Assembly: GCA_002746935.1 (NCBI GenBank)
Contig: PDRW01000030.1
Span: forward strand, 1 to 64,000
Length of the DNA: 64,000 nt
Source of the DNA: Rhodobacterales bacterium
Lineage (GTDB): Bacteria; Pseudomonadota; Alphaproteobacteria; Rhodobacterales; Rhodobacteraceae
Direction of reading: 5' to 3'
The position numbers and the translations under genes were made by a program. The notes under the pieces are model-generated. The model saw only the letters and a program-made list of their open reading frames with translations, did not search any database and was not told the origin of the DNA. Below are positions 23,617-36,063 of this stretch, piece by piece; within the stretch, counting starts at the first letter, position 1, and each line of letters opens with the position of its first letter.

Positions 23617-23647
23617 GCCCGGCTCAGGCTCGGGCTCAGTCTCAGTC
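23617..23647. repeat. 6-bp tandem repeat over the isomerase stop codon
   Basis: On the minus strand the last codons CGA GAC TGA run into GACTGA, GCCCGA, GCCTGA: a 6-bp period starting at the final codons and extending past the stop. Another example of duplication at a gene's 3' end in this window. Confidence 0.6.
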
Positions 23648-24304
23648 TCGGGCGGCGTGCTCGTTCCACAGCGGCCGGTGCTTTGGCTCGTCTTCCTCGA
23701 TGGTCGAGAACCGCCCGATCGGTTTGAGGAAATAATTGTCGGTCAGATCGTCGTTGCACTGGCTGATCTCGGCGCAGAAGGCCGGGCCGGTGCCCGGCTC
23801 GCCCCAGAAGCTGTGCTTCATGCCGCGCGGAATGGTGACGCCGTTGCCGGGCGCGAGCCGGATCGGCTCCGCATAGGGGTCTGCGATCACCCGGCCGTCG
23901 ACCCGCACCGGATCGTCGGCCTCGCTGCCCTCGCGGGTGAAGGCGACCAGCAGATTGCCGCCGCCGCGCACCATGATGTCTTCCATCTTCACCTTGTGCG
24001 AGTGGAAAGGTGTCACCTGGCCTTCGTTCACGAACAGCAGCTTCTCGGCATAGGGCAGGGTGGCGGGGTCACCCTGGACGCCGTTGCGCACGCAAAACAG
24101 GGTGAGGCCCGTGGCGGCGAAATCGCCGAGCCCGAAATCGGTCACGTCCCAGCCGAGCTGGCGGGCGGCGAGAAAGGCGGCAAGCTCCGGTTCGGCGGCG
24201 AAATCCGCCTCGGACCAGCCGGCCCAGTCGGGAAGCCGCCAGCGGTATTCGGCGATCAGGGCTTCGGCGCTGCGGATGGCGGCGTTGATTTCAGAGCGTT
24301 TCAT
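23642..24304 (-). CDS. D-lyxose/D-mannose-family sugar isomerase (cupin)
   Basis: A 220-residue cupin isomerase of the D-lyxose ketol-isomerase family, interconverting an aldose and its 2-ketose with a divalent metal. The metal ligands fit the family: H101 and H103 in TPFHSHKVKMED, E108, and H164 in RGMKHSFWG; the C-terminal GRFSTIEEDE is also typical. Family members act on D-lyxose/D-xylulose, D-mannose/D-fructose or related sugars, so the substrate is open. It is the last gene of the transport operon, 73 bp after the ATPase gene, and links import to the divergent kinase/aldolase genes. Confidence 0.85.
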   Translation of the reverse strand: MKRSEINAAIRSAEALIAEYRWRLPDWAGWSEADFAAEPELAAFLAARQLGWDVTDFGLGDFAATGLTLFCVRNGVQGDPATLPYAEKLLFVNEGQVTPFHSHKVKMEDIMVRGGGNLLVAFTREGSEADDPVRVDGRVIADPYAEPIRLAPGNGVTIPRGMKHSFWGEPGTGPAFCAEISQCNDDLTDNYFLKPIGRFSTIEEDEPKHRPLWNEHAARD

Positions 24305-24377
24305 GGGCAGGGCCTTTCGCGAATGGGGTCAGGGCCGGGGCGCCCCCCCCCCGGTGACGCCCCGGCGGGTTGGCGGC

Positions 24378-25157
24378 TCAGCCGCCGATCATCAGCATCA
24401 CCACCTCGTCATGGGTGGTGTCGCTGATCCGCCGTTCGCCGACCGCGACCCCGCGCCGGAGCACGATGATCCGGTCGGAGACGGCGAAGATGTCGGACAT
24501 GTTGTGGCTGATGAAGATCACCGCCTTGCCCTCGTCCTTCAGCTGCTGGACCAGTTGCAACACCTTGCGCTGCTCCGGTACGCCGAGGGCGGCGGTGGGT
24601 TCGTCCATGATCAGCACCTGGGCGTTCCAGTAGAGCGCCCGTCCGATCGCCACCGCCTGGCGCTGGCCGCCGGAGAAGTTGGAGACCGGCGCATCAAGCC
24701 GCGAGACGTGGAAATCGAGCCGCGCCATGGTCTCGCGCGCCGCCTCCGCCATCGCCTTGCGGTCGAGGATGGGGATGAAGCCGAACCGCCTGGTCATCGG
24801 CTCGCGGCCGAGGAAGATGTTGCCGCCGATGGAGAGGTTGTCGGCCAGCGCGAGATCCTGATAGATCGTCTCGATCCCCTTGTCGCGGGCATCCTGCGGC
24901 GAGGAGAAGGTCATCTCCTGGCCGTTGAGGAAGATCTGCCCCGAGCTTTGCGGATAGACGCCGGAGATCGCCTTGATCACGGTGGTCTTGCCGGCGCCGT
25001 TGTCGCCCGCGAGCGCCACCACTTCACCGGCGCGCACCACCATCGAAAGATCCCTGAGCGCCTGTACGGGGCCGAAATTCTTCGACAGGTTCTTCACCTC
25101 GAGCACCACGTCGCCATGTTTTGCCGGCGGGGCCTTGATGGGAGAAAGATCATTCAC
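24378..25157 (-). CDS. Sugar ABC transporter ATP-binding protein (single cassette)
   Basis: A 259-residue ATPase of the CUT2 (ribose/fructose) type, but with one cassette rather than the tandem RbsA form, like FrcA. Walker A GDNGAGKTT at residues 51-59, signature NFSGGQRQAVAIGRAL, Walker B VLIMDEPTAALG and the switch histidine in FISHNMSDI are intact. It overlaps the permease gene by 8 bp. It energises import through the permease encoded upstream. Confidence 0.9.
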   Translation of the reverse strand: MNDLSPIKAPPAKHGDVVLEVKNLSKNFGPVQALRDLSMVVRAGEVVALAGDNGAGKTTVIKAISGVYPQSSGQIFLNGQEMTFSSPQDARDKGIETIYQDLALADNLSIGGNIFLGREPMTRRFGFIPILDRKAMAEAARETMARLDFHVSRLDAPVSNFSGGQRQAVAIGRALYWNAQVLIMDEPTAALGVPEQRKVLQLVQQLKDEGKAVIFISHNMSDIFAVSDRIIVLRRGVAVGERRISDTTHDEVVMLMIGG

Positions 25158-26214
25158 TTTGGCGTCCTCCGGAAAAGTCGCGCTGGGCCTGATCCATCAG
25201 CACCGAAACGATGATGACCACGCCGACGGAGATGAACTGCCAGAATGGCTCGACATTGACGAAGACGAGGCCGTACTGGATCACCGCGATCACGAAAGCC
25301 CCCGCGACAGTGCCGAGAATGGTGCCCGAACCGCCGAACAGGCTGGCGCCGCCGATGACCACCGCGGCAACCGCGTCGAGCAGCATCGGTTCGCCCGCCT
25401 GGGCCGCCCCGGCGGCAAAACGCGCCGAGTAGAGCACCCCGGAAAGACCGGCGCAGCCCGCCGACAGGATGTAGAGCCGGCCCACATGGCGTTTGATGTT
25501 GATCCCGGCCCGCCGCGCCGCGATCTCGCTGGCGCCGATGGCGTAATTGTGCTGGCCGAAGCGGGTCTGGCTCAGGATGTAATGCATCGTCAGCACGAAC
25601 AGCGCGGTGATCAGCACTATGATTGGCACGCCGGCGATCTTGCCGTTGCCGATGGCGGCGAACACCGGGTTGCCGCGCACGGGCACCGTGGTGCCCCCCG
25701 CCAGCAGGAAGGCGGTGCCGCGGGCAACGCCGAACATGCCCAGCGTGCCGATGAAGGGCGGCACCTTGAGGCGGGCGACCAGCAGGCCGTTGATGGTGCC
25801 GGGAATGGTCGCGACCGCGATCGCCACCAGCGCCCCGAAGACGATGGCAAAGCCCGGCCCCATCACCGGGGTGGCCCAGTTGATGGTATGTGCCGCCACG
25901 ACCGCCGCCAGCCCCATGATGAAGCCGAGCGAAAGGTCGATCCCGCCGGAAATGATCACGAAGGTCTGCCCGGTGGCCAGCAGCAGCGGCGCGACGGCGA
26001 AGATCGCGATCGACTGCACGTTGTAGGGGTTGAACATGAAGGTGCCGTTGAAGGCGATCCGGGCCCAGATTTCGAACATCACCACGAGGAAGATGAGAAA
26101 CAGCCAGGCCCTCAGCGAGGCGACGCGTTGCAATAATGTCAGTGCCTGGTCGGCGTGATCCGCCGGCGGCGACACCGCCGATCTGGGCACTTCTCTTGTG
26201 TTCTGGTCTGTCAT
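25150..26214 (-). CDS. Sugar ABC transporter permease (CUT2 type)
   Basis: A 354-residue membrane protein with about ten hydrophobic segments, from LRAWLFLIFLVVMFEIWARI to FWQFISVGVVIIVSVLMDQA. It contains the RbsC/FrcC-type patterns ISGGIDLSLGFIMGLAAVVA and FGGSGTILGTVAGAFVIAVI. ATG 26214 is taken as start; a GTG at 26238 in the same frame adds eight residues and cannot be excluded, as neither has a strong ribosome site. The binding-protein gene upstream is separated by 155 bp with two hairpins. Confidence 0.88.
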   Translation of the reverse strand: MTDQNTREVPRSAVSPPADHADQALTLLQRVASLRAWLFLIFLVVMFEIWARIAFNGTFMFNPYNVQSIAIFAVAPLLLATGQTFVIISGGIDLSLGFIMGLAAVVAAHTINWATPVMGPGFAIVFGALVAIAVATIPGTINGLLVARLKVPPFIGTLGMFGVARGTAFLLAGGTTVPVRGNPVFAAIGNGKIAGVPIIVLITALFVLTMHYILSQTRFGQHNYAIGASEIAARRAGINIKRHVGRLYILSAGCAGLSGVLYSARFAAGAAQAGEPMLLDAVAAVVIGGASLFGGSGTILGTVAGAFVIAVIQYGLVFVNVEPFWQFISVGVVIIVSVLMDQAQRDFSGGRQSE

Positions 26215-26294
26215 TGGGCTCGGGTTCCGGTCTGCCACCCCCGCGGAGCCGTCCCCGGTCCCGCAGGTTCAGGAAAGGATTGAGAAACGGGAGA

Positions 26295-26354
26295 CGGCCC
26301 GTCGGTCACGGGCCGCCGCCCGGGGAAGAGAGGCCCGCCCCGGTGAGGGCGGGC
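26295..26354 (-). promoter_or_regulatory. Two hairpins between the sugar-binding-protein and permease genes
   Basis: CGGCCCGT (26295-26302) pairs with ACGGGCCG (26308-26315), and GCCCGCCC (26333-26340) with GGGCGGGC (26347-26354). The second lies 15 nt past the binding-protein stop. Such stems usually allow more binding protein than permease to be made; that role is inferred. Confidence 0.6.
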
Positions 26355-26369
26355 ACGCGCAGGTTCCGG

Positions 26370-27353
26370 TCAGTCGGAATAGATGTATTTCGCGATTTCC
26401 GGATCGTCGATATTGGCCGCGTCCATCACGGTAAAGCCGGTGCCGATCGAAACCGGGATCGAATTGCCGGTGAGGTGGGCATAGGCCGAGACCACGCCGT
26501 AATAGCCGATTTCGGCCGGGTGCTGGGCGATGGCGACGTCGACCAGACCGGTCTTGAGGTTGTCGACGATCGAGGCCGGGGCGTCGAAGGCCACGACCTT
26601 GACCTTGCCGGTCTCGCCCGCCTGCTGCACGCCGGTGCCGGCGCCCAGCGCCGAGAACAGGTTGGCGCCGAACACGCCCTTGAGCCCGGGTTCGCGCGCC
26701 AGCACGCCTTGCAGCTGGGTCGCGGCCTTGTTGGCGTCGTTGTCGTTGAACTGGGTTTCGAGCACGGTCACGCCGGGGAAATTCTCGGCCATTTCGAGCT
26801 TGAAGCCCTCTTCGCGCTGGTCGGTGGTGGAGATGCCGGGCTTGACGTTGGACACATAGACCGCGCCTTCGCCGCCGATCGCCTTGGCCAGCGCGCGCGC
26901 CGCCATGCGGCCGCCGAGCACGTTGTCGGAGGCGATGTAGGAGAGCGGGAAGTCGGCATCGCCCGCGCCGGTCTGGTAGACACCGGTGCCGATGAAGGTG
27001 TCGACGGTCAGCACCGCGATGCCCTCGTCATGGGCCTTGCGCAGCGGCTCGACCAGCTGGGTCTTGTCGGTGGGCGCGATCAGGATCGCGTCGGGCTTGC
27101 GGGCGATCACCGCGTCGAGCACCGGTACCTGCAACACCGGGTTGAAGTCCGGCGCCCCCTGAAACACCAGTTCGACCCCGAGCGCGTCAGCCGCCGCCTG
27201 GGCGCCGCGGTTCATGGTGATGTAGAACGCATCCGTGGTGAGCCCCGGTACCAGGGCGATGGTGATGTCCTTGTCGGCGGCCACCGCCGGCGCCGCCAGG
27301 CTGACACCCAGGGCAAGGGCAGAGACCACTCCGAGAAAACTGCGACGTTTCAT
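26370..27353 (-). CDS. Periplasmic sugar-binding protein of the CUT2 ABC transporter
   Basis: A 327-residue periplasmic binding protein with a signal peptide, MKRRSFLGVVSALALGVSLA, cleaved after AAPAVAA. The mature part (KDITIALVPGLTTDAFYITM and onward) has the RbsB-like two-lobe pattern; DAILIAPTDKTQLVEPLRKA and the later VVAFDAPASIVDNLKTGLVD are typical ligand-site regions. AGGAG six bases before ATG 27353 fixes the start. It should bind the sugar handled by this locus. A candidate regulator site (27480-27498) lies upstream. Confidence 0.88.
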   Translation of the reverse strand: MKRRSFLGVVSALALGVSLAAPAVAADKDITIALVPGLTTDAFYITMNRGAQAAADALGVELVFQGAPDFNPVLQVPVLDAVIARKPDAILIAPTDKTQLVEPLRKAHDEGIAVLTVDTFIGTGVYQTGAGDADFPLSYIASDNVLGGRMAARALAKAIGGEGAVYVSNVKPGISTTDQREEGFKLEMAENFPGVTVLETQFNDNDANKAATQLQGVLAREPGLKGVFGANLFSALGAGTGVQQAGETGKVKVVAFDAPASIVDNLKTGLVDVAIAQHPAEIGYYGVVSAYAHLTGNSIPVSIGTGFTVMDAANIDDPEIAKYIYSD

Positions 27354-27479
27354 TTCCAACTCCTCCAAATTGGTATTCCTGAGGGCGCGCCGGCCCTGGG
27401 GGCGCTGCCGGCGGAGGCCTTGCCGCCGCCTCGCGGACCCCGGTACGGGAATAACACGCCCGCGGCCGGGTTTCGTCAA

Positions 27480-27498
27480 GTGCAATTTTCTTCTGAAA
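27480..27498. promoter_or_regulatory. Candidate SorC-regulator operator, transporter side
   Basis: GTGCA, nine bases ATTTTCTTC, TGAAA. It matches the palindromic site at 28560-28578 (TTGCA, ATTCCTTTC, TGCAA) over most positions with identical spacing. It lies in the only intergenic gap upstream of the binding-protein gene, so it is a plausible site for the local regulator. Confidence 0.5.
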
Positions 27499-27509
27499 CG
27501 ATTTTCCCG

Positions 27510-27565
27510 GGCCTTCGGTATCAGGCCTTCGGTATCAGGCCTTCGGTATCAGGCCTTCGGTGTCA
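27510..27565. repeat. 14-bp tandem repeat, four copies, reaching the regulator stop codon
   Basis: GGCCTTCGGTATCA is repeated at 27510, 27524 and 27538, with a fourth copy at 27552-27565 changed at one base. The last three bases of the final unit are the stop codon of the minus-strand regulator gene. The array extends the gene's 3' end into the intergenic gap. Confidence 0.9.
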
Positions 27566-28558
27566 GGAATCGCGGGCCAGATGGTCGAGCAGGGCTTCGC
27601 CGGTGGCGAGGTCGGTGATCAGCCGGTTGATCATGCCCGAACGCGCCGCGCCGGCGATCGAGCGCAGCTTGTCGGTGCCGGCCGCGAGCCCGATCGACAC
27701 CGGCGCGGCACGCAGTTGCGCGGCGCTTACGGCGATCATCCGCCCCTCGCCGCGCCAGTCGAGAACCCGGCCCTGATCGTCGAAATAATGGCGCACGATG
27801 TCGCCCGCGGCGCCCTCCAGCACCGGATCGCGCGCGGCGCTCTCGATATTGGGGTTGGCCGGATCGTAGGGCACGCCGATGCCGACCACGGCCATGTCGA
27901 TCCGGTTCCACAGTGCCATGGCATCGCGCACCGAGCGTTCTTCGAGAAACGAGCGGAAGAGCTCCGGCGCCGGCAGGTAGGGGGCGTGAATCAGCTGCGG
28001 CACGCCGCCGGTCACTTCCGCGGCGCGGCGGGCCAACTCGTTGGAATGAAAGTGATTTGCGAGGTTCTGCATCCCCCCGGTGGAGGGCACGACGGTGACC
28101 CCGGGCATGGCCGGAAGGCCGGCTTCGATCACCGCCCGCACGGTGCGGCCCCAGCCGAGCATCAGCACCGGGCCATGCCCCGGGCCAGAACTCCGGCCAA
28201 AGCTCGGGCCAGAACTCGGGCCATGCCCCGGGCCAGAGCCCGAAAGCATCCGCGCCAGATGCGGCGCGAGCGCGGGCAGCGCCCCGGCGGCGGGCGCATC
28301 GGCGGCGACCACCTCGTCGAGCCCGAGCCCTTCGGCGAGGCGGGCGCCGACCTCGCCGGGGTCGAAGATCTCGCGCACCTCGATGCGCACGATCCCCTCG
28401 GCGCGGGCCTTTTGCAGGAGCCGCGAAATCGTCGCCGTGCTGAGGCCAAGCTGTTTCGCAATCCGTACCTGGCTCATGTTGCTCACATAGTGGAGCTTTG
28501 CCACCGTGTGCAGCAGGGCGCGGCTGTCGCCGACAATGCTTCCACCCGAAACTGACAA
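27563..28558 (-). CDS. SorC/DeoR-type sugar-responsive transcriptional regulator
   Basis: A 331-residue regulator. The N-terminal helix-turn-helix (about 29-50: MSQVRIAKQLGLSTATISRL) is followed by the SorC sugar-phosphate-binding domain (VLMLGWGRTVRAV, VVGIGVPYDP, GAARSGMINRLITDLATGEALL). The start is TTG 28558, supported by AAAGGA eight bases upstream; no ATG is placed better. Residues about 107-130 are an in-frame GPGHGP-rich repeat inserted just before the sugar domain. It sits between the transporter operon (same strand) and the aldolase operon (divergent) and probably controls both, with a sugar phosphate as inducer. Confidence 0.88.
   Translation of the reverse strand: MSVSGGSIVGDSRALLHTVAKLHYVSNMSQVRIAKQLGLSTATISRLLQKARAEGIVRIEVREIFDPGEVGARLAEGLGLDEVVAADAPAAGALPALAPHLARMLSGSGPGHGPSSGPSFGRSSGPGHGPVLMLGWGRTVRAVIEAGLPAMPGVTVVPSTGGMQNLANHFHSNELARRAAEVTGGVPQLIHAPYLPAPELFRSFLEERSVRDAMALWNRIDMAVVGIGVPYDPANPNIESAARDPVLEGAAGDIVRHYFDDQGRVLDWRGEGRMIAVSAAQLRAAPVSIGLAAGTDKLRSIAGAARSGMINRLITDLATGEALLDHLARDS
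28169..28240. repeat. In-frame imperfect repeat within the regulator gene
   Basis: CGGGCCATGCCCCGGGCCAG occurs twice, 47 bp apart, with degenerate CGGGCCAGAACTC units between. It encodes GPGHGPSSGPSFGRSSGPGHGP, absent from ordinary SorC proteins at this point. Confidence 0.75.
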
Positions 28559-28559
28559 A

Positions 28560-28578
28560 TTGCAATTCCTTTCTGCAA
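28560..28578. promoter_or_regulatory. Palindromic candidate operator in the divergent promoter region
   Basis: TTGCA, nine bases, TGCAA: a symmetric site overlapping the ribosome site of the regulator gene and 95 bp upstream of the aldolase start. Together with the related site at 27480-27498 it is a candidate binding site for the SorC-type regulator, which would give autoregulation. Confidence 0.5.
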
Positions 28579-28672
28579 GGTGTTACATCGCAGCAGATGG
28601 GTTATCGCGCAATCTCCGGGCCATGGCAATGGGATTCCGCCCGGGCAAGGCGCTTCCAGTGGGAGAAACGAC

Positions 28673-29578
28673 ATGACCGCCATGACCGCCATGACCACCG
28701 CCGAGCGGCGCGGATACAGCCAGATATGCGGCGCGGACGGCGCCATGATGGTGATCGCCTGCGACCAGCGCGGCGGGATGCGCCAGGTGCTGGCGGACAC
28801 GCCCGGGGCGCGCGAGGCGATCACCAATCACGCTCTGGGGCTGGTGAAGGCCGACATCACCCGTTACCTCGCGGTCCATGCCGGTGCGGTGCTGGTCGAT
28901 CCGCTCTGCGCGGTGCCGATGCTGGTCGACGAGGGCATCATCGCGCCCGCCACCGGGCTGGTGATCGGGCTCGACGCCTCCGGCTTTGACACCACCCCGG
29001 AGGGCTGGCGGATTTCCCGCATGGTCGAGGGGGTGAGCGCGCGGCGGGTTCGCGCGCTTGGCGGGACGGCGGCCAAGATCATGATCTATCTGCGCGCCGA
29101 TACCCCCGGCGCCAACCAGGCCAACCTTGAAACCCTGCGCCGGACAGTGGCGGATTTTGCCGCGGAAGATCTGCTGCTGGTGGTGGAATTCCTCACCTAC
29201 AGCCTGCCCGGCGAAAGCCCGGAGGCTTATGCGGCGGCCTGGCCGGGGCTGATCGGGGGCGGGGTGAGGCTTTGTCTCGATGCCGGCGCGAAGGTGCTGA
29301 AAATCCCCTATCCGGGGTCGGCCGCGGCCTGTGCGCGGGTCACCGAAATCTGTGGCAGGGTGCCCTGGGCGGTGCTGTCGGCCGGTGTCGATCACGCAAC
29401 CTTCCTTGGCCAGGTCGACAGCGCGATGGCCAATGGCGCCTCCGGGGTGATCGCCGGGCGGGCGCTGTGGAAAGACTGCATTTCGCTTGACCGCGAGGTG
29501 ACAAGGCAGCGGCTGGAAAGCGTCGCCCTGCCGCGGTTGCGCCAGTTGCAGGCGGCGATCGCGCGCCACCGGAGCTGA
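28673..29578 (+). CDS. LacD/YihT-type class I aldolase
   Basis: A 301-residue (beta/alpha)8 aldolase related to tagatose-1,6-bisphosphate aldolase LacD and sulfofructosephosphate aldolase YihT. It cleaves a ketose (bis)phosphate to dihydroxyacetone phosphate and an aldehyde. Residues at family-equivalent places are D31 (CDQR), K135 (AAKIMIY), E172 (VVEFL) and the Schiff-base candidate K210 (VLKIPYPG); LSAGVD and SGVIAGRALWKD are also typical. GGGAGA six bases upstream supports ATG 28673, but three in-frame ATGs nine bases apart (28673, 28682, 28691) make the exact start uncertain. First gene of the divergent operon; the kinase gene begins 2 bp after its stop. Confidence 0.85.
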   Translation: MTAMTAMTTAERRGYSQICGADGAMMVIACDQRGGMRQVLADTPGAREAITNHALGLVKADITRYLAVHAGAVLVDPLCAVPMLVDEGIIAPATGLVIGLDASGFDTTPEGWRISRMVEGVSARRVRALGGTAAKIMIYLRADTPGANQANLETLRRTVADFAAEDLLLVVEFLTYSLPGESPEAYAAAWPGLIGGGVRLCLDAGAKVLKIPYPGSAAACARVTEICGRVPWAVLSAGVDHATFLGQVDSAMANGASGVIAGRALWKDCISLDREVTRQRLESVALPRLRQLQAAIARHRS

Positions 29579-29580
29579 AC

Positions 29581-30969
29581 ATGGGCGAGCGGGCCGGCAT
29601 CGGCATTGACATCGGCGGCACCCATCTGCGTGCGGCGCGGGTGCGGGAGGGGCGGATCGAGGCGCGCGCCGAAGCGCCCTCGTCGGGCGATGCGGGCGAG
29701 GTGCTGGCGCGCTGCCTGGCGCTGGTGGAAAAGGTGCGCAGCCCTGAGGCGGAGGCCATCGGCATCGGCATTCCCGGCCAGGTCGATGCCTTGGCGCGGC
29801 GGGTGATTTCGGGCGGGTTCGTCGATCTCTCGGGGGTCGATTTCCGTGCCGAAATCGAAGCGGCGGCCGGTCTGCCGGTGGCGGTGGAGAACGATGCGAC
29901 CATGGCGCTGATCGCCGAGGCGGCCTTTGGCGCCGCCCGCGGGCAGGCCAATGTGGTGATGCTGACCATCGGCACCGGGATCGGCGGCGCGATCCTCGAG
30001 GCCGGGCGGATCCTGCGCGGGCGGCGCGCTGCCGGGCAGCTTGGGCATATCGTCGTCGACCCTGCCGGAGAGCCGTGCCTGTGCGGCAGGCGCGGCTGTG
30101 TCGAGACCACCAGTTCCGGCACCGCGCTGGGGCGGCTGATCGCCGGGGCGGGGCTGCCGGCGGGCACAAGAATCGAGGCGCTGCTGGCGGGCAGGGACGC
30201 GGGTTCGCGCGGCGTGATCGCGGCCTGGGCCGCTCCGCTCCGGCGCGCCATCGACAGCCTGATCGCGGTGCTCAACCCCGGTCTGGTGCTGCTGGGCGGC
30301 GGGCTCGGGCCGGCTGCCTGTGCCGCGCTTGAGACCGTGCCGGAGGCAAAGGGCTGGTACCATGCCCCGGTGCGGGCCGCACGGCTCGGCGATGACGCCG
30401 GGGTGATCGGTGCGGCGCGGGCGGGGCTCGGCGGCGCCCATGCCAGGCGGGTGGTGCTGGTCAACGGCGTGCCCGCCAGCGGCAAGAGCCGGCTGGCGCG
30501 GGCGCTGGCCGATGCCACCGGCTGGCCGCTGCTTGCGCTCGACACCATCAAGGCGCCGTTCCTCGCGGGGCTGCCGCCCGGCGACCGGCTGTTCAACCGC
30601 ACGCTGGGGCGGGCGAGCCATGAGGCCATCTTCGACACCATCGCCGCGGCCCCGCCGGGGGCCGGCTTCATCGTCGATGCCTGGTTCGGTTTCCAGCCGG
30701 TCGCGGTGCTCGAAGCCGGGCTTGCCCGCGCCGGCGTCGGGGGGCGGGCCGAGATCTGGTGCCATGCGCCGCCAGAGGTGATCGGCGCGCGCTATGCGGC
30801 GCGGGTGCCCGAACGTCCGCCGGGGCATCCGGGCACCGAATATGTGCCGGAGCTGGTGGCGCTTGCCGCCCGCGCCCGCCCGACCGGCCTCGCGCCGGTG
30901 CTTCGGGTTGAGACCACCGCGGGGCTCGATCTGCCCCGGGTCACGCAATGGCTGGGCGAGGTGCTGTGA
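29581..30969 (+). CDS. Fusion of ROK sugar kinase and P-loop (AAA_33/CPT-like) kinase domain
   Basis: A 462-residue two-domain protein. Residues 1-285 form a complete ROK kinase: ATP loop DIGGT 10-14, catalytic base D105 in ENDA, phosphate loop GTGIGGA 131-137, and zinc motif H156, C166, C168, C173 (CLCGRRGCVE). The usual GExGH glutamate is glutamine (Q153), suggesting altered sugar specificity. From about 288 a second domain starts VVLVNGVPASGKSRLARAL, with Walker A GVPASGKS 296-303. It continues in the style of chloramphenicol-phosphotransferase/AAA_33 kinases to the C-terminus. The join is in frame with no stop and no internal ribosome site. The protein may phosphorylate a ketose at two positions before the aldolase acts; this is inference. 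Confidence 0.85.
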   Translation: MGERAGIGIDIGGTHLRAARVREGRIEARAEAPSSGDAGEVLARCLALVEKVRSPEAEAIGIGIPGQVDALARRVISGGFVDLSGVDFRAEIEAAAGLPVAVENDATMALIAEAAFGAARGQANVVMLTIGTGIGGAILEAGRILRGRRAAGQLGHIVVDPAGEPCLCGRRGCVETTSSGTALGRLIAGAGLPAGTRIEALLAGRDAGSRGVIAAWAAPLRRAIDSLIAVLNPGLVLLGGGLGPAACAALETVPEAKGWYHAPVRAARLGDDAGVIGAARAGLGGAHARRVVLVNGVPASGKSRLARALADATGWPLLALDTIKAPFLAGLPPGDRLFNRTLGRASHEAIFDTIAAAPPGAGFIVDAWFGFQPVAVLEAGLARAGVGGRAEIWCHAPPEVIGARYAARVPERPPGHPGTEYVPELVALAARARPTGLAPVLRVETTAGLDLPRVTQWLGEVL

Positions 30970-30994
30970 GCCCTGCCGGAAAGGAGAAAGAGAG

Positions 30995-31723
30995 ATGGAC
31001 GGTTTCGAAAAGGGTCCGATTCTGGTGACGGGCGCTTCAGGCGGCATCGGCGGCGCGACGGTGCGCCAGCTTGCGGCCAGGGGGGCGGAGGTGATCGCCT
31101 CGGGCCGCAACAGGGAGGCGCTGGCGGCGCTGGCCGCGGAAACCGGCTGCCGGGTGCTTCCCTTCGATCTCGAATCCGAAGACAGCATCAGGGCCGCGCT
31201 CGACGGGCTCGACCTCTACGGCGTGGTCAATTGCGGCGGCTGGGGCGGCGAGATTGCCACGCCGATGGACACCGACATCTCGGTGTTCGACAAGGTGATG
31301 CAGATCAACGCCCGGGGCGCGCTGCTGGTCACCAAATACGCCTCGCGCTCGATGATCCGGCTGGGCCGCGGCGGGGTGTTCGTCAACGTTTCGTCGCAGG
31401 CCTCGCTGGTGGCGCTGAAAGGGCATGTCTCCTACGGCTCTTCCAAGGCGGCGCTCGACAACATCACCCGGGTTTCGGCACTGGAACTCGGCCCCCACGG
31501 GATCCGTGTCAATGCGGTGAACCCGACGGTGGTGATGACGCCGATGTCGGCCTGGTACTGGGGCCGCGAAGACATCGAAGGCCCGTTCCTTGCCGCCATG
31601 CCGCTTGGCCGCTGGGCCACCGAAGACGAGATCGCCGCGCCGATCGTGTTTCTGCTCTCGGATGGCGCGGCGATGATCTCCGGCGTGACCCTGCCGGTCG
31701 ACGGCGGCTTCACCGCCTGCTGA
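30995..31723 (+). CDS. Short-chain dehydrogenase, L-xylulose reductase (DCXR)-like
   Basis: A 242-residue NAD(P)-dependent SDR. The cofactor loop is TGASGGIGGATV (12-23), and the catalytic S134, Y147 and K151 lie in NVSSQASLVALKGHVSYGSSKAAL order. The C-terminal half (SALELGPHGIRVNAVNPTVV, MTPM, then LPVDGGFTAC at the end) closely follows carbonyl/L-xylulose reductase, which interconverts ketopentoses and polyols. AAGGAG eight bases upstream fixes ATG 30995. Last gene of the plus-strand operon, 25 bp after the kinase. It may bring a polyol or ketose into the pathway. Confidence 0.85.
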   Translation: MDGFEKGPILVTGASGGIGGATVRQLAARGAEVIASGRNREALAALAAETGCRVLPFDLESEDSIRAALDGLDLYGVVNCGGWGGEIATPMDTDISVFDKVMQINARGALLVTKYASRSMIRLGRGGVFVNVSSQASLVALKGHVSYGSSKAALDNITRVSALELGPHGIRVNAVNPTVVMTPMSAWYWGREDIEGPFLAAMPLGRWATEDEIAAPIVFLLSDGAAMISGVTLPVDGGFTAC

Positions 31724-32501: not shown

Positions 32502-32576
32502 TGGCAGTCCGTAGGGGAATCGAACCCCTCTTTCCAGGTTGAAAACCTGGCGTCCTAACCGATAGACGAACGGACC
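32502..32576 (-). tRNA. tRNA-Glu (anticodon UUC)
   Basis: The minus strand folds into a 75-nt cloverleaf. The acceptor arm GGTCCGT pairs with ACGGACT (first pair G-U), the D arm holds GTCTATCGGTTAGGAC, and the anticodon stem CCAGG/CCTGG encloses the loop TTTTCAA with anticodon TTC. The T arm is AGGGG TTCGATT CCCCT, and CCA is encoded. It is a frequent integration target in bacteria; the IS256 and acxC debris lie immediately downstream. Confidence 0.95.
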
Positions 32577-32698
32577 ACGCTGTCGGTGACGAGGTGTTTA
32601 GAAAATGGCGGCCGGGAGGGCAAGCGGTTTTTTTGGCCCGGCGGGATTTCTTTCGGGCGGGTCCGGCCGGGGCATGCCGCCGCCGAAGGCGCCGGGGC

Positions 32699-34450
32699 TC
32701 AGGCCGGCGCGGCGTCTTCGAGCCTGAGTTGCGGGGTGACGCGGCCGTTCCAGTGGTTGAGTTCGAGCCGCCCGGCGAAGTGGAAGCGGGCGCCGTGGTG
32801 GTTCATCAGCGCCGGGCCGAGGGGGCTGTCGAAAGCGTTGAAGGCGATGGCGTCGAGCTTGCCGCCGAGCCCGTCGGCGATGGTCAGCTTGAGGTGATTC
32901 TGCCCGACCGCGCGGGCGAAGCCCACGGCCATGTCGGGGAAGGCAAAGCGGGGGGCGGGGGCCCCGGCGCCATAGGGGCCGGCGGCCTCGATCCGGGCGA
33001 TCAGCTCGGGGGTCGCGGCGCCGGGCATCAGCACCCCGTCGAGGCGCAGCTCGCGCGGGCCCATGGCCCCGGCGCCCTGGCGGGCGAGCAGCTCCGAAAG
33101 CCGCGCCATGGCCGGGGCGAGCTGGGCGCGGGTGAGGGTAAGCCCCGCGGCCATGCGGTGGCCGCCGCCGCGTTCGATCAGCCCTTCGGCGGCGAGGCGT
33201 TGCACCGGGGCGCCGAGGTCGATGCCGCTGACCGACCGCCCCGAGCCCTTGCCGATACCGGCCTCGTCGAGGCCGATCACCATTGTGGGCCGGTTCGCCG
33301 CCTCCTTGAGCCGCGAGGCGACGATGCCGACCACGCCCGGGTGCCAGCCCTCGCCCGCGGCCCAGACCAGCGGCGCGTCGAAGCCGCGGTCTTCGGCCTG
33401 CGCGGTGGCAGCGGCGAGCACCTCGGCCTCGATCTCGCGCCGCTCGCCGTTGAGCAGATCGAGCCGGAGCGCCAGCGCCTGCGCCTCGGCCGGGTCGGTG
33501 GCGGTCAGCAGCCGGGCGCCGAGGTCGGCCTCGCCGATCCGTCCGCCCGCGTTGATCCGCGGCCCGAGCATATAGCCCAGATGATAGGGGGTCGGGGCGG
33601 TGTTCATCTTCGCCACATCGGCGAGCGCCGTGAGCCCCGGGCGCGCGCGCCGTCCCATCACCTTGAGCCCCTGCACCACCAGCGCCCGGTTGGCGCCGAT
33701 CAGGGGCGCCACATCGGCCACGGTCGCCAGCGCCACCAGATCAAGCTCGGCCATGAGGTCGGGCCCCGCGCGGCCCGCCTCGCGCAAAGCGCGGGAGATT
33801 TCCACCAGCAGCAGAAACACCACCCCCGCGGCGCAGAGATAGCCAAGCTCGCCGCTCTCGTCCTGACGGTTGGGGTTCACCAGCGCCAGCGCCGGGGGCA
33901 GGGTTTCGCCGCCGAGGTGATGGTCGAGCACCACCACATCGGCGCCTTCCGCCACGGCGGCGGTGATCGGTTCGTGCGACAGCGTGCCGGCATCGACCAC
34001 GATGATCAGCTTGTGGGTCGCCGCGAGTCTCTGCATCGCGGGGGTGTTGGGGCCGTAGCCTTCTTCGATGCGGTCGGGGATATAGAGCGTCGGCTCGATG
34101 CGGAAATGCCGGAACCAGTCGATCAGCAGCGCGGCGGAGGTGGCGCCGTCGACATCGTAATCGGCAAAGACCGCGACCTTTTCCTGCCGGTCAACCGCCG
34201 CCAGCACCCGTGCGGCGGCGGTCTCCATGTCGCGGAGCCGGCGCGGGTCGGGGAGGGTGTCGCGCAAGGTCGGCGCAAGGAAGCCGGGCACATCGGCCGC
34301 CGCCACGCCGCGCCGCGCCAATACGGCGGCCACCGGCGCGGGCAGGTCCGCGGCTTGCGTGAGCGCTTCGGCCTGACGGGCCATCTCCACGCCGGGACCG
34401 GTCCAGCGGCGGCCGGTCAGCGAAGCGTCGACATCGAGGAAGGCAGACAT
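32699..34450 (-). CDS. recJ: Single-stranded-DNA-specific exonuclease RecJ
   Basis: A 583-residue DHH-family 5'-3' exonuclease of recombinational and mismatch repair. Motif I is FADYDVDGATSAALL (D97, D99 and D101 as metal ligands), and the DHH motif follows in VVVLDHHLGGE. The DHHA1 domain has the glycine-rich IERGGGHRMAAGLTL near residue 425. Length agrees with the family. The final codons include a C-terminal OB-like domain. It stands alone, facing the same way as the isochorismatase remnant and glpX. Confidence 0.93.
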   Translation of the reverse strand: MSAFLDVDASLTGRRWTGPGVEMARQAEALTQAADLPAPVAAVLARRGVAAADVPGFLAPTLRDTLPDPRRLRDMETAAARVLAAVDRQEKVAVFADYDVDGATSAALLIDWFRHFRIEPTLYIPDRIEEGYGPNTPAMQRLAATHKLIIVVDAGTLSHEPITAAVAEGADVVVLDHHLGGETLPPALALVNPNRQDESGELGYLCAAGVVFLLLVEISRALREAGRAGPDLMAELDLVALATVADVAPLIGANRALVVQGLKVMGRRARPGLTALADVAKMNTAPTPYHLGYMLGPRINAGGRIGEADLGARLLTATDPAEAQALALRLDLLNGERREIEAEVLAAATAQAEDRGFDAPLVWAAGEGWHPGVVGIVASRLKEAANRPTMVIGLDEAGIGKGSGRSVSGIDLGAPVQRLAAEGLIERGGGHRMAAGLTLTRAQLAPAMARLSELLARQGAGAMGPRELRLDGVLMPGAATPELIARIEAAGPYGAGAPAPRFAFPDMAVGFARAVGQNHLKLTIADGLGGKLDAIAFNAFDSPLGPALMNHHGARFHFAGRLELNHWNGRVTPQLRLEDAAPA

Positions 34451-34530
34451 GGGGGTTTTGTAGGCGGCGGGCGCGGCGAGGTCCAGTGGCGGGGGCGAGG
34501 TGGGGGCGAGGTGGGGGCAGGGGCCCCACG

Positions 34531-35082
34531 CTACGGTGCATTCCCCAGCACCGCCTCCAGCCCCACCACCTCGGTAAACTCGCCGTGGAGCGCGTCGAGC
34601 GCCGCCTCGTGGATCGCCTGCGGCGTCACCACACCGCCGCCGCGCCAGTCGGTGCGGACGTTCCGGGTGAAGGCGGCGCAGGCGTCATGCACCAGCCGGA
34701 CCGAAAGGCCGAGATTTGCGGCCGTCCGCACGGTGGTGGAGACGCAATGCGGCGTGGTCAGGCCGCAGATCACCAGATCTTCGATCCCGGCGGCGCGGAG
34801 ATCGGCTTCGAGACGCGTGCCGATGAAGCCGCTGTTGACGCGTTTATCGTAAACCGGCTCGCCTGCGCGCGGCAACACCGCCGGGTGGAAGCCCGTCCGG
34901 CCGGTCTCGGGGTGGAGCGGCGAGGCCGGATCGGTCGAGAGGTGGCGTACATGGCACACCGGCGCGCCCGCGCTCCGCCAGGCGGCCAGCCGCCGCCCGG
35001 GGTTTTCTTCGGCCTCCGGGTTGTTCCGTTCGCCCCAGTCGGATCGTCGAACGCCGTCTGGATGTCGACCAGAACGAAGGCC
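34531..35082 (-). pseudogene. Isochorismatase-family cysteine hydrolase, frameshifted, no start
   Basis: Two frames together give one hydrolase. One reads KAFVLVDIQTAFDDP with the catalytic-type Asp. The other reads WGERNNPEAEENPGRRLAAW, VCHVRHLSTDPASPLHPETG, later KRVNSGFIGTRL and ICGLTTPHCVSTT with the nucleophilic cysteine. One base is missing at about 35043. The N-terminal frame has no ATG/GTG/TTG at the expected place; it begins at the TAA of glpX. The C-terminal 142 residues remain open from 34959. Either a true pseudogene or a sequencing error plus an unrecognised start. Confidence 0.75.
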
Positions 35083-36063
35083 TTACACGTTGACCCGCGA
35101 GGTCGGCGAACGATAGGTGATGTGCCGCACCGAGCCCGATTTCGAACGCATCAAGAGGGTTTCGGCCTCGACCCAGCCGGGCTCGTGCTTGAGGCCGGAG
35201 ACGATCGAACCGTCGGTCACGCCGGTGGCGGAGAAGATCACATCCGCGGTCACCAGTTCGTCGCGCGAATAGATCTTGTCGAGATCGGTGATGCCGGCCT
35301 TGGCGGCGCGGCCGCGTTCGTCGTCGTTGCGGAACAGAAGCTGACCCCACATCTGGCCGCCCATGCATTTCAGCGCCGCGGCGCCGAGCACGCCTTCCGG
35401 CGCGCCGCCCGAGCCCATGTACATGTCGATGCCGGTGCGCTCGGCCTCGGCGGTGTGGATCACGCCGGCCACATCGCCATCGGTGATCAGCCGGATGGCG
35501 CAGCCGGTGGAGCGCAGCTCGGCGATCATCGCTTCATGGCGGGGGCGCTCCAGCACGCAGACGGTGATGTCGCTCTGGTCGCAGCCCTTGGCCCTGGCCA
35601 GCGCCGCGACCCGCTCGGCGGGCGACATGGCAAGCGAGACCACATCCCTTTCATAGCCGGGGCCGACGGCGAGCTTTTCCATGTAGACGTCGGGGGCGTG
35701 CAGCATGGTGCCGCGGGGCGCCAGCGCGATCACGGTCAGCGCGTTGGGCATGTCCTTGGCGGTGAGGGTGGTGCCTTCCAGCGGGTCGAGGGCAATGTCG
35801 ACCTCCGGCCCCTCGCCGGTGCCCACTTCCTCGCCGATATAGAGCATCGGCGCCTCGTCGCGCTCGCCCTCGCCGATCACCACGGTGCCCCTGATGTCGA
35901 GCAGGTTGAGCTGGTCGCGCATCGCGTTGACAGCGGCCTGATCGGCGGCCTTCTCGTCGCCGCGTCCGACCAGCTTGTAGGAGGCCACCGCGGCGGCTTC
36001 GGAGACACGGGCGAGGCCGAGCGAAAGCATGCGGTCGGCGAAAACGACGGGAGAGGCGGTCAT
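35083..36063 (-). CDS. glpX: Class II fructose-1,6-bisphosphatase GlpX
   Basis: A 326-residue Mn/Mg-dependent phosphatase for gluconeogenesis and, in autotrophs, the Calvin cycle. Family motifs are VIGEGERDEAPMLYIGEEVG, IALDPLEGTTL (metal site), GGAPEGVLGAAALKCMGGQM and FSATGVTDGSIVSGL. The start ATG 36063 has an AAAGGA site upstream (plus-strand TCCTTT). The isochorismatase remnant begins directly at its stop. The hom gene lies upstream on the same strand, beyond the broken ceramidase gene. Confidence 0.93.
   Translation of the reverse strand: MTASPVVFADRMLSLGLARVSEAAAVASYKLVGRGDEKAADQAAVNAMRDQLNLLDIRGTVVIGEGERDEAPMLYIGEEVGTGEGPEVDIALDPLEGTTLTAKDMPNALTVIALAPRGTMLHAPDVYMEKLAVGPGYERDVVSLAMSPAERVAALARAKGCDQSDITVCVLERPRHEAMIAELRSTGCAIRLITDGDVAGVIHTAEAERTGIDMYMGSGGAPEGVLGAAALKCMGGQMWGQLLFRNDDERGRAAKAGITDLDKIYSRDELVTADVIFSATGVTDGSIVSGLKHEPGWVEAETLLMRSKSGSVRHITYRSPTSRVNV

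Follow-up and report, generated by a model that had tools for sequence, protein, structure and literature searches.

Which sugar is broken down, and in what order of steps, by a bacterial locus in which a ROK kinase domain and a P-loop kinase domain share one chain? This question is raised by positions 23642 to 31723 of a 64,000-nucleotide stretch of Rhodobacterales DNA (contig PDRW01000030.1; the whole stretch is called the window here). According to the list of open reading frames (ORFs) and profile scans with Pfam and NCBIfam, this interval is a divergent locus of eight genes centred on a SorC-family regulator. The minus strand encodes a cupin isomerase of the Lyx_isomer family, the ATPase, permease and periplasmic binding protein of an ATP-binding cassette (ABC) importer, and SorC itself; the plus strand encodes a LacD-type aldolase, the ROK plus P-loop chain, and a short-chain dehydrogenase/reductase (SDR). 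The same arrangement, including the two-domain kinase, had been described in an earlier note on this DNA, and both the ORFs and the Pfam matches bear it out. Under the control of SorC, the locus probably serves the breakdown of a rare 2-ketose with the configuration of tagatose at C3 and C4, the most likely substrate being D-mannoheptulose and otherwise D-tagatose.

In the pathway that we infer, the ABC importer would bring the ketose into the cell, where the ROK domain would phosphorylate its terminal hydroxyl, that is, C7 of a heptulose or C6 of a hexulose. A second phosphate, on C1, would come from the P-loop domain of that chain, and the LacD-type aldolase would split the resulting bisphosphate into dihydroxyacetone phosphate (DHAP) and erythrose-4-phosphate (or glyceraldehyde-3-phosphate). 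SorC would bind a motif present on both arms and sense a phosphorylated intermediate, while the SDR would probably feed in the matching polyol (perseitol, volemitol, or a hexitol) and the cupin isomerase, again probably, the matching aldose. The earlier note had expected two trioses as the end products; this stands for a hexulose and falls for a heptulose, which would give DHAP and erythrose-4-phosphate. A pentose, also suggested there, seems an unlikely substrate. The features of the locus are as follows.

23642 to 24304, minus strand: cupin aldose-ketose isomerase of the Lyx_isomer family, 220 amino acids (Pfam PF07385, 231.7 bits); accessory, outside the core
24378 to 25157, minus strand: single-domain ABC ATPase, 259 amino acids (Pfam ABC_tran, 111 bits)
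25150 to 26238, minus strand: ABC permease (Pfam BPD_transp_2, 120 bits)
26370 to 27353, minus strand: periplasmic sugar-binding protein (Peripla_BP_4; phmmer, 501 bits to PDB 5dkv)
27481 to 27498, plus strand: operator-like motif with 4 mismatches to TGCAATTCCTTTCTGCAA, 5' of the binding-protein gene
27563 to 28477, minus strand: SorC-family regulator, 304 amino acids from the ATG at 28477 (Pfam Sugar-bind, 134 bits)
28561 to 28578, plus strand: operator-like motif TGCAATTCCTTTCTGCAA, in the divergent gap between the SorC and aldolase genes
28673 to 29578, plus strand: LacD/YihT-type class I aldolase, 301 amino acids (Pfam DeoC/LacD, 63 bits)
29581 to 30447, plus strand: ROK kinase domain, chain residues 1-289 (Pfam ROK, 150 bits at residues 7-279)
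30448 to 30969, plus strand: P-loop kinase domain, chain residues 290-462, in the frame of the ROK domain (Pfam AAA_33, 36.2 bits at residues 291-412)
30995 to 31723, plus strand: SDR oxidoreductase, 242 amino acids, accessory (Pfam adh_short_C2, 176 bits, scored on a longer frame)

A fused kinase in a conserved locus

The ROK and AAA_33 matches lie on one frame of 462 amino acids. The AAA_33 score compares with a Pfam cut-off of 27 bits; the matches to Lyx_isomer, ABC_tran, BPD_transp_2, Peripla_BP_4, Sugar-bind, DeoC/LacD and ROK all far exceed their cut-offs. To gather relatives, contigs were scanned with the P-loop domain as query and the best 80 of 138 relatives were kept, which makes all locus counts conditional on the P-loop domain. 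Loci L136, L137, L155 and L156 apparently repeat L014, L015, L008 and L006, respectively, and were excluded as new loci. A sequencing artefact is an unlikely source of the fusion: 72 of the 80 loci show an uninterrupted frame of 230 codons or more in front of the P-loop match.

Importer, aldolase, ROK and P-loop domains occur together in 73/80 loci, 71 of which also carry a SorC match, and counterparts of the ABC ATPase and of the permease are each found in 73/80. The hosts are mostly Mesorhizobium, Rhizobium, Agrobacterium and Rhodobacterales, and the locus is a real, well-conserved unit. Among the seven loci that lack the full core, L031 and L055 run into a contig end, L006 lacks an aldolase gene between those for SorC and the kinase, and L073 is a phosphotransferase system (PTS) locus; L075, L076 and L078 showed no such importer within the sequence stretch examined. 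Of 198 genomes from the family to which the window belongs, 15 gave a match to the P-loop query (six strong matches, the window's genome included, one contig-end fragment and eight weak ones); phylum-wide, 18 of 398 did, 11 of them strongly.

The two kinase domains are encoded by separate adjacent genes in L020, L075, L076, L078 and L080, and by genes that overlap by ATGA, as read by eye, in L135; in L033 the kinase frame is interrupted. A midpoint-rooted tree of 37 P-loop sequences, picked for spread, placed the six split P-loops on one side of a branch (support 87/80, under the tool's star; 84% of bootstrap trees) and, as drawn, among the fused ones, with L135 on a long branch. Nine P-loop proteins from PTS loci, together with the fused L027 and L042, fell on one side of a branch with 100/97 support. 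Across 74 fused, six split and nine PTS-linked proteins, 34 P-loop positions, those of Walker A included, show at least 95% conservation, suggesting that all three groups act on one substrate or on similar ones. This comparison was made without L033, L055, short or repeated locus copies, and copies of the window.

Two alignments, of 42 and 34 chosen sequences, were made. In the ROK domain, N104, D105, H156, C166, C168 and C173, taken as active-site residues, were invariant in 42/42 aligned fused chains, that of the window included. Position 153 is Gln in the same 42 chains and in the five split ROKs read (the L020 motif was unmatched by the search pattern and is uncounted), as opposed to Glu in the three glucokinases shown and His in the two N-acetylmannosamine (ManNAc) kinases shown, and the specificity of this ROK domain therefore probably differs from both.

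P-loop relatives beside phosphotransferase systems

In nine loci, the P-loop protein has PTS genes as neighbours and our searches detected no ROK: L073 (Erwinia), L081 (Klebsiella) and L128 to L134 (same phylum). The PTS calls were made by eye for IIA and IIC of L073, with Pfam for L128 and L129, from the record annotation for L081, and by similarity for the others. Each of these loci holds one ketose-bisphosphate-type aldolase, of the LacD type in L073, L129 and L133 and of class II in L081, L128, L130, L131, L132 and L134 (assigned with Pfam in the case of L128). In L129, the P-loop protein is the only kinase that our reference set found beside the PTS genes and the LacD-type aldolase, and the ORF list of L073 looks alike.

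A PTS hands over its sugar already phosphorylated. Since the P-loop kinase is common to the ROK and the PTS loci, the simplest reading is that it acts on a phosphorylated ketose and that ROK and PTS are two ways of taking the step before. The order drawn in the earlier note, from ketose to ketose phosphate (ROK), bisphosphate (P-loop) and cleavage, gains support from these relatives, which keep the P-loop protein and in which no ROK was found. Both tested IIC proteins score above the cut-off of NF006919, a model named for ascorbate, and fail two others; the ascorbate PTS phosphorylates a terminal 6-OH, which is in line with terminal phosphorylation by the ROK domain.

As a side observation, a small protein of about 90-100 amino acids, related between loci, is encoded ahead of IIA in L081, L128 and L130 to L133; the one tested, from L128, had no Pfam match. 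The PTS locus taken from L131 had no near match among Escherichia coli genomes.

Aldolase, binding protein and a previously proposed pathway

Lys210 of the aldolase, which we take to be the Schiff-base lysine, falls on a lysine in alignments with LacD and YihT structures; the window and all 82 aligned relatives retain it. The active sites of the aldolase and of the ROK domain both look intact. NCBIfam models for tagatose-bisphosphate aldolase match the window aldolase below their cut-offs, and matches to YihT and LacD structures are about equal, with a best E value near 1e-18 for both. The likeness to YihT might point to a sulfosugar pathway of the sulfo-Embden-Meyerhof-Parnas (sulfo-EMP; YihS/YihV/YihT/YihU) type, with which the locus would share a YihT-family aldolase. 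We consider this very improbable and set it aside: in the available text of PMC12890257, sulfo-EMP runs through sulfonated intermediates with a single phosphorylation, to sulfofructose-1-phosphate, as against two kinase domains here, and the isomerase lies outside the conserved core.

The binding protein matches PDB 5dkv over residues 27-326 with 501 bits (phmmer, E 9.9e-150). The counterpart of the locus in Agrobacterium vitis CG118 (L066) encodes a binding protein that, compared by eye, has about 98% identity to 5dkv. Among the 73 full-core loci, identity to the window's binding protein is at least 69%, apart from about 41% for L020. We take 5dkv to be Avi_5339; a literature text search found "5DKV" in no paper.

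The earlier note knew of no described pathway with this gene set. The same core and step order had in fact been proposed by Leyn et al. (2017; PMC5507952) for Rhodobacteriaceae bin08, as a hypothetical mannoheptulose pathway in which mannoheptulose is converted to its 7-phosphate by a ROK kinase and to the 1,7-bisphosphate by a second kinase, and then cleaved to DHAP and erythrose-4-phosphate. The proposal cites an unpublished observation of others that A. vitis Avi_5339 binds mannoheptulose. Like the bin08 locus, which is a prediction only, the window carries an ABC importer with an Avi_5339-type binding protein (by way of 5dkv), a LacD-type aldolase (COG3684 there), a ROK kinase and a candidate second kinase. 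The kinases of bin08 are given as two, COG1940 and COG0529; for the second, COG0529 denotes the adenylylsulfate kinase type, whereas Pfam calls the window domain AAA_33. The available text of PMC5507952 makes no mention of a fusion, an isomerase or an SDR, and compared with it, the one-frame fusion, its split relatives, the PTS variant, and the accessory status of isomerase and SDR are new here. Wording on a mannoheptulose or heptulose pathway matched PMC5507952 alone, with nothing closer among the literature matches listed.

If correct, our reading would make the predicted pathway concrete and easily assayed, with one fusion protein, one aldolase and one binding protein. A P-loop kinase called only "AAA family ATPase" in one annotated record would gain a function as well. 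The locus recurs in plant-associated rhizobia and Agrobacterium, and mannoheptulose and perseitol are plant sugars.

A motif shared by both arms

Two copies of an 18-bp motif flank the regulator gene, TGCAATTCCTTTCTGCAA upstream of the aldolase and a copy with four mismatches upstream of the binding-protein gene. In the rest of the 64 kb, only position 41889 matches with five mismatches or fewer. We compared 21 loci, picked for spread, and found the motif 5' of the aldolase with at most two mismatches in 20 of them (L013 being without it) and 5' of the binding protein with at most five mismatches in 14. With the best window 18-mer as seed and up to five mismatches, 35/42 regions matched on the aldolase side and 36/42 on the binding-protein side. 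As controls, we used 60 shuffles of the aldolase-side stretch, of which one reached 22 and the rest 13 at most, and 20 stretches from elsewhere in the window, for which the maximum was 15; common descent adds to motif counts of this kind. The PTS loci L073 and L129 carry the motif as well, with one and three mismatches, respectively. A promoter scan of 27340-28700 gave no match by its criteria. We infer that both arms form one regulon under SorC, with the motif as its likely site and a phosphorylated intermediate as its likely ligand.

Weighing the second kinase and the substrate

Several observations count against the proposed pathway. The AAA_33 assignment says little on function, and the sole PDB sequence relative of the P-loop domain at E <1e-5 is 2rhm, an uncharacterised kinase. 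A PfkA-type kinase accompanies the P-loop protein in seven of the nine PTS loci, so that the latter is not the sole candidate for the second step there. In L006, on a 4.3-kb contig, the SorC and kinase genes are immediate neighbours, without an aldolase gene to separate them, and the motif is weak or absent 5' of the binding protein in seven of the 21 loci compared. Near the importer, 9/80 loci have a PfkB kinase (at least 45% identical to that of L003), in at least six of them directly after the ATPase (L001 to L005, L008). The L003 protein is nearest to a tagatose kinase model, missing its cut-off with 261 of 420 bits. This PfkB would be a third kinase, superfluous to a two-kinase scheme, and it is a pointer to tagatose. 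We also believe that the title of 5dkv names alpha-D-tagatopyranose, not mannoheptulose. Among the literature matches listed, no assay of any enzyme of the locus was found.

The weak family assignment and the PfkA-type kinases lend some weight to the idea that the P-loop domain is a regulatory or otherwise unrelated phosphotransferase, no catabolic second kinase, with the ROK product handled otherwise. We think this unlikely, given that the domain shares a frame with ROK in nine-tenths of the loci (72/80), that the 34 positions including Walker A are kept in fused, split and PTS-linked proteins, and that our reference set found no other kinase next to the PTS genes and LacD-type aldolase of L129, the ORF list of L073 looking alike.

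D-tagatose and D-mannoheptulose agree at C3, C4 and C5, so that both ligands and both aldolase types fit. With D-tagatose, the ROK domain would make tagatose-6-phosphate and the P-loop domain tagatose-1,6-bisphosphate, to be cleaved to DHAP and glyceraldehyde-3-phosphate, while talose (through the isomerase) and a hexitol (through the SDR) would be sources of tagatose. Membership of the aldolase in the LacD family and the PfkB neighbour of some loci speak for this version, as would alpha-D-tagatopyranose as the ligand of 5dkv. The LacD tagatose-6-phosphate pathway of Gram-positives likewise puts a LacD-type aldolase on a ketose bisphosphate; its kinase, LacC, is of the PfkB type, and PfkB had no match among the eight window-locus proteins scanned with Pfam. 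The Agrobacterium tagatose kinase pathway for altritol and galactitol resembles the locus in its ABC importer, polyol dehydrogenase and ketose kinase, and differs in using a PfkB kinase and a 6-phosphate epimerase with no aldolase. Tagatopyranose has no free 6-OH, so that ROK would need the furanose or open form; ROK hexokinases use a free hydroxyl at the chain end remote from the anomeric carbon, and of the two pyranoses only that of the heptulose offers one. Moreover, the available text of PMC5507952 gives mannoheptulose for Avi_5339. On balance, D-tagatose seems a possible but somewhat doubtful substrate. In its most specific form, our preferred reading is tentative: the P-loop proteins may be a previously uncharacterised family of ketose-phosphate kinases, fed by a fused or split ROK (with an ABC importer) or by a PTS, and the locus a dedicated D-mannoheptulose route in which one chain makes the 1,7- (or 1,6-) bisphosphate.

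Accessory genes and gene boundaries

The isomerase belongs to the Lyx_isomer family and, aligned to PDB 3kmh, matches the His/His/Glu/His positions of that structure (H101, H103, E108 and H164, presumably metal ligands). With 198.9 bits, it stays below the 350-bit equivalog cut-off of NCBIfam NF051472 (lyxose/mannose isomerase), and its substrate is therefore not given by family. Within the flanks examined, it adjoins the locus only in the window and L135. No match at E 1e-8 was found in the 80 loci, many of which hold only 1-2 kb beyond the ATPase gene, nor was the gene seen beside the locus in L127, L153 and L154; a relative occurs somewhere in 100/198 family genomes. We thus set aside an isomerase-first pathway as the conserved core, a step that the earlier note had included.

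The SDR, which we read as a polyol or ketose dehydrogenase, has relatives at 70-73% identity in 5/80 loci, both A. vitis ones included, and at 81-84% in L135, L153 and L154. In the window's genome (84% complete), the nearest relative of the L003 PfkB is 42% identical and lies on another contig. Several Rhodobacterales-type loci have a PfkB and a Gfo/Idh oxidoreductase gene after the ABC ATPase (L003:1-2001, L008:14513-16510, L127:13512-15442). Beside the SDR, two genomes of the family (L154:8086-11088 and L135:5463-8262) carry genes for a PfkB kinase and for a Gfo/Idh-like oxidoreductase (24-26% to that of L003), with an additional aldolase-like gene, by eye, in the L154 stretch and the isomerase between the Gfo/Idh-like and PfkB genes in L135.

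As for gene boundaries, the ABC ATPase and permease genes overlap by 8 bp, and the isomerase gene lies 73 bp downstream of the ATPase gene. The SorC frame is open up to 28558, with start candidates between 28477 and 28558; several SorC relatives have 301-302 amino acids. The aldolase most likely starts at 28673. The SDR start at 30995 is preceded by AAAGGAG and lies beyond the end of the kinase frame. A 14-bp direct repeat, GGCCTTCGGTATCA, recurs about four times at 27510-27567, covering the end of the SorC gene and the gap to the binding-protein gene. Shortly downstream of the locus (window 32502-36063 region) lies a tRNA-Glu (TTC), followed by recJ-like (32699-34450) and glpX-like (35083-36063) genes, identified by eye.

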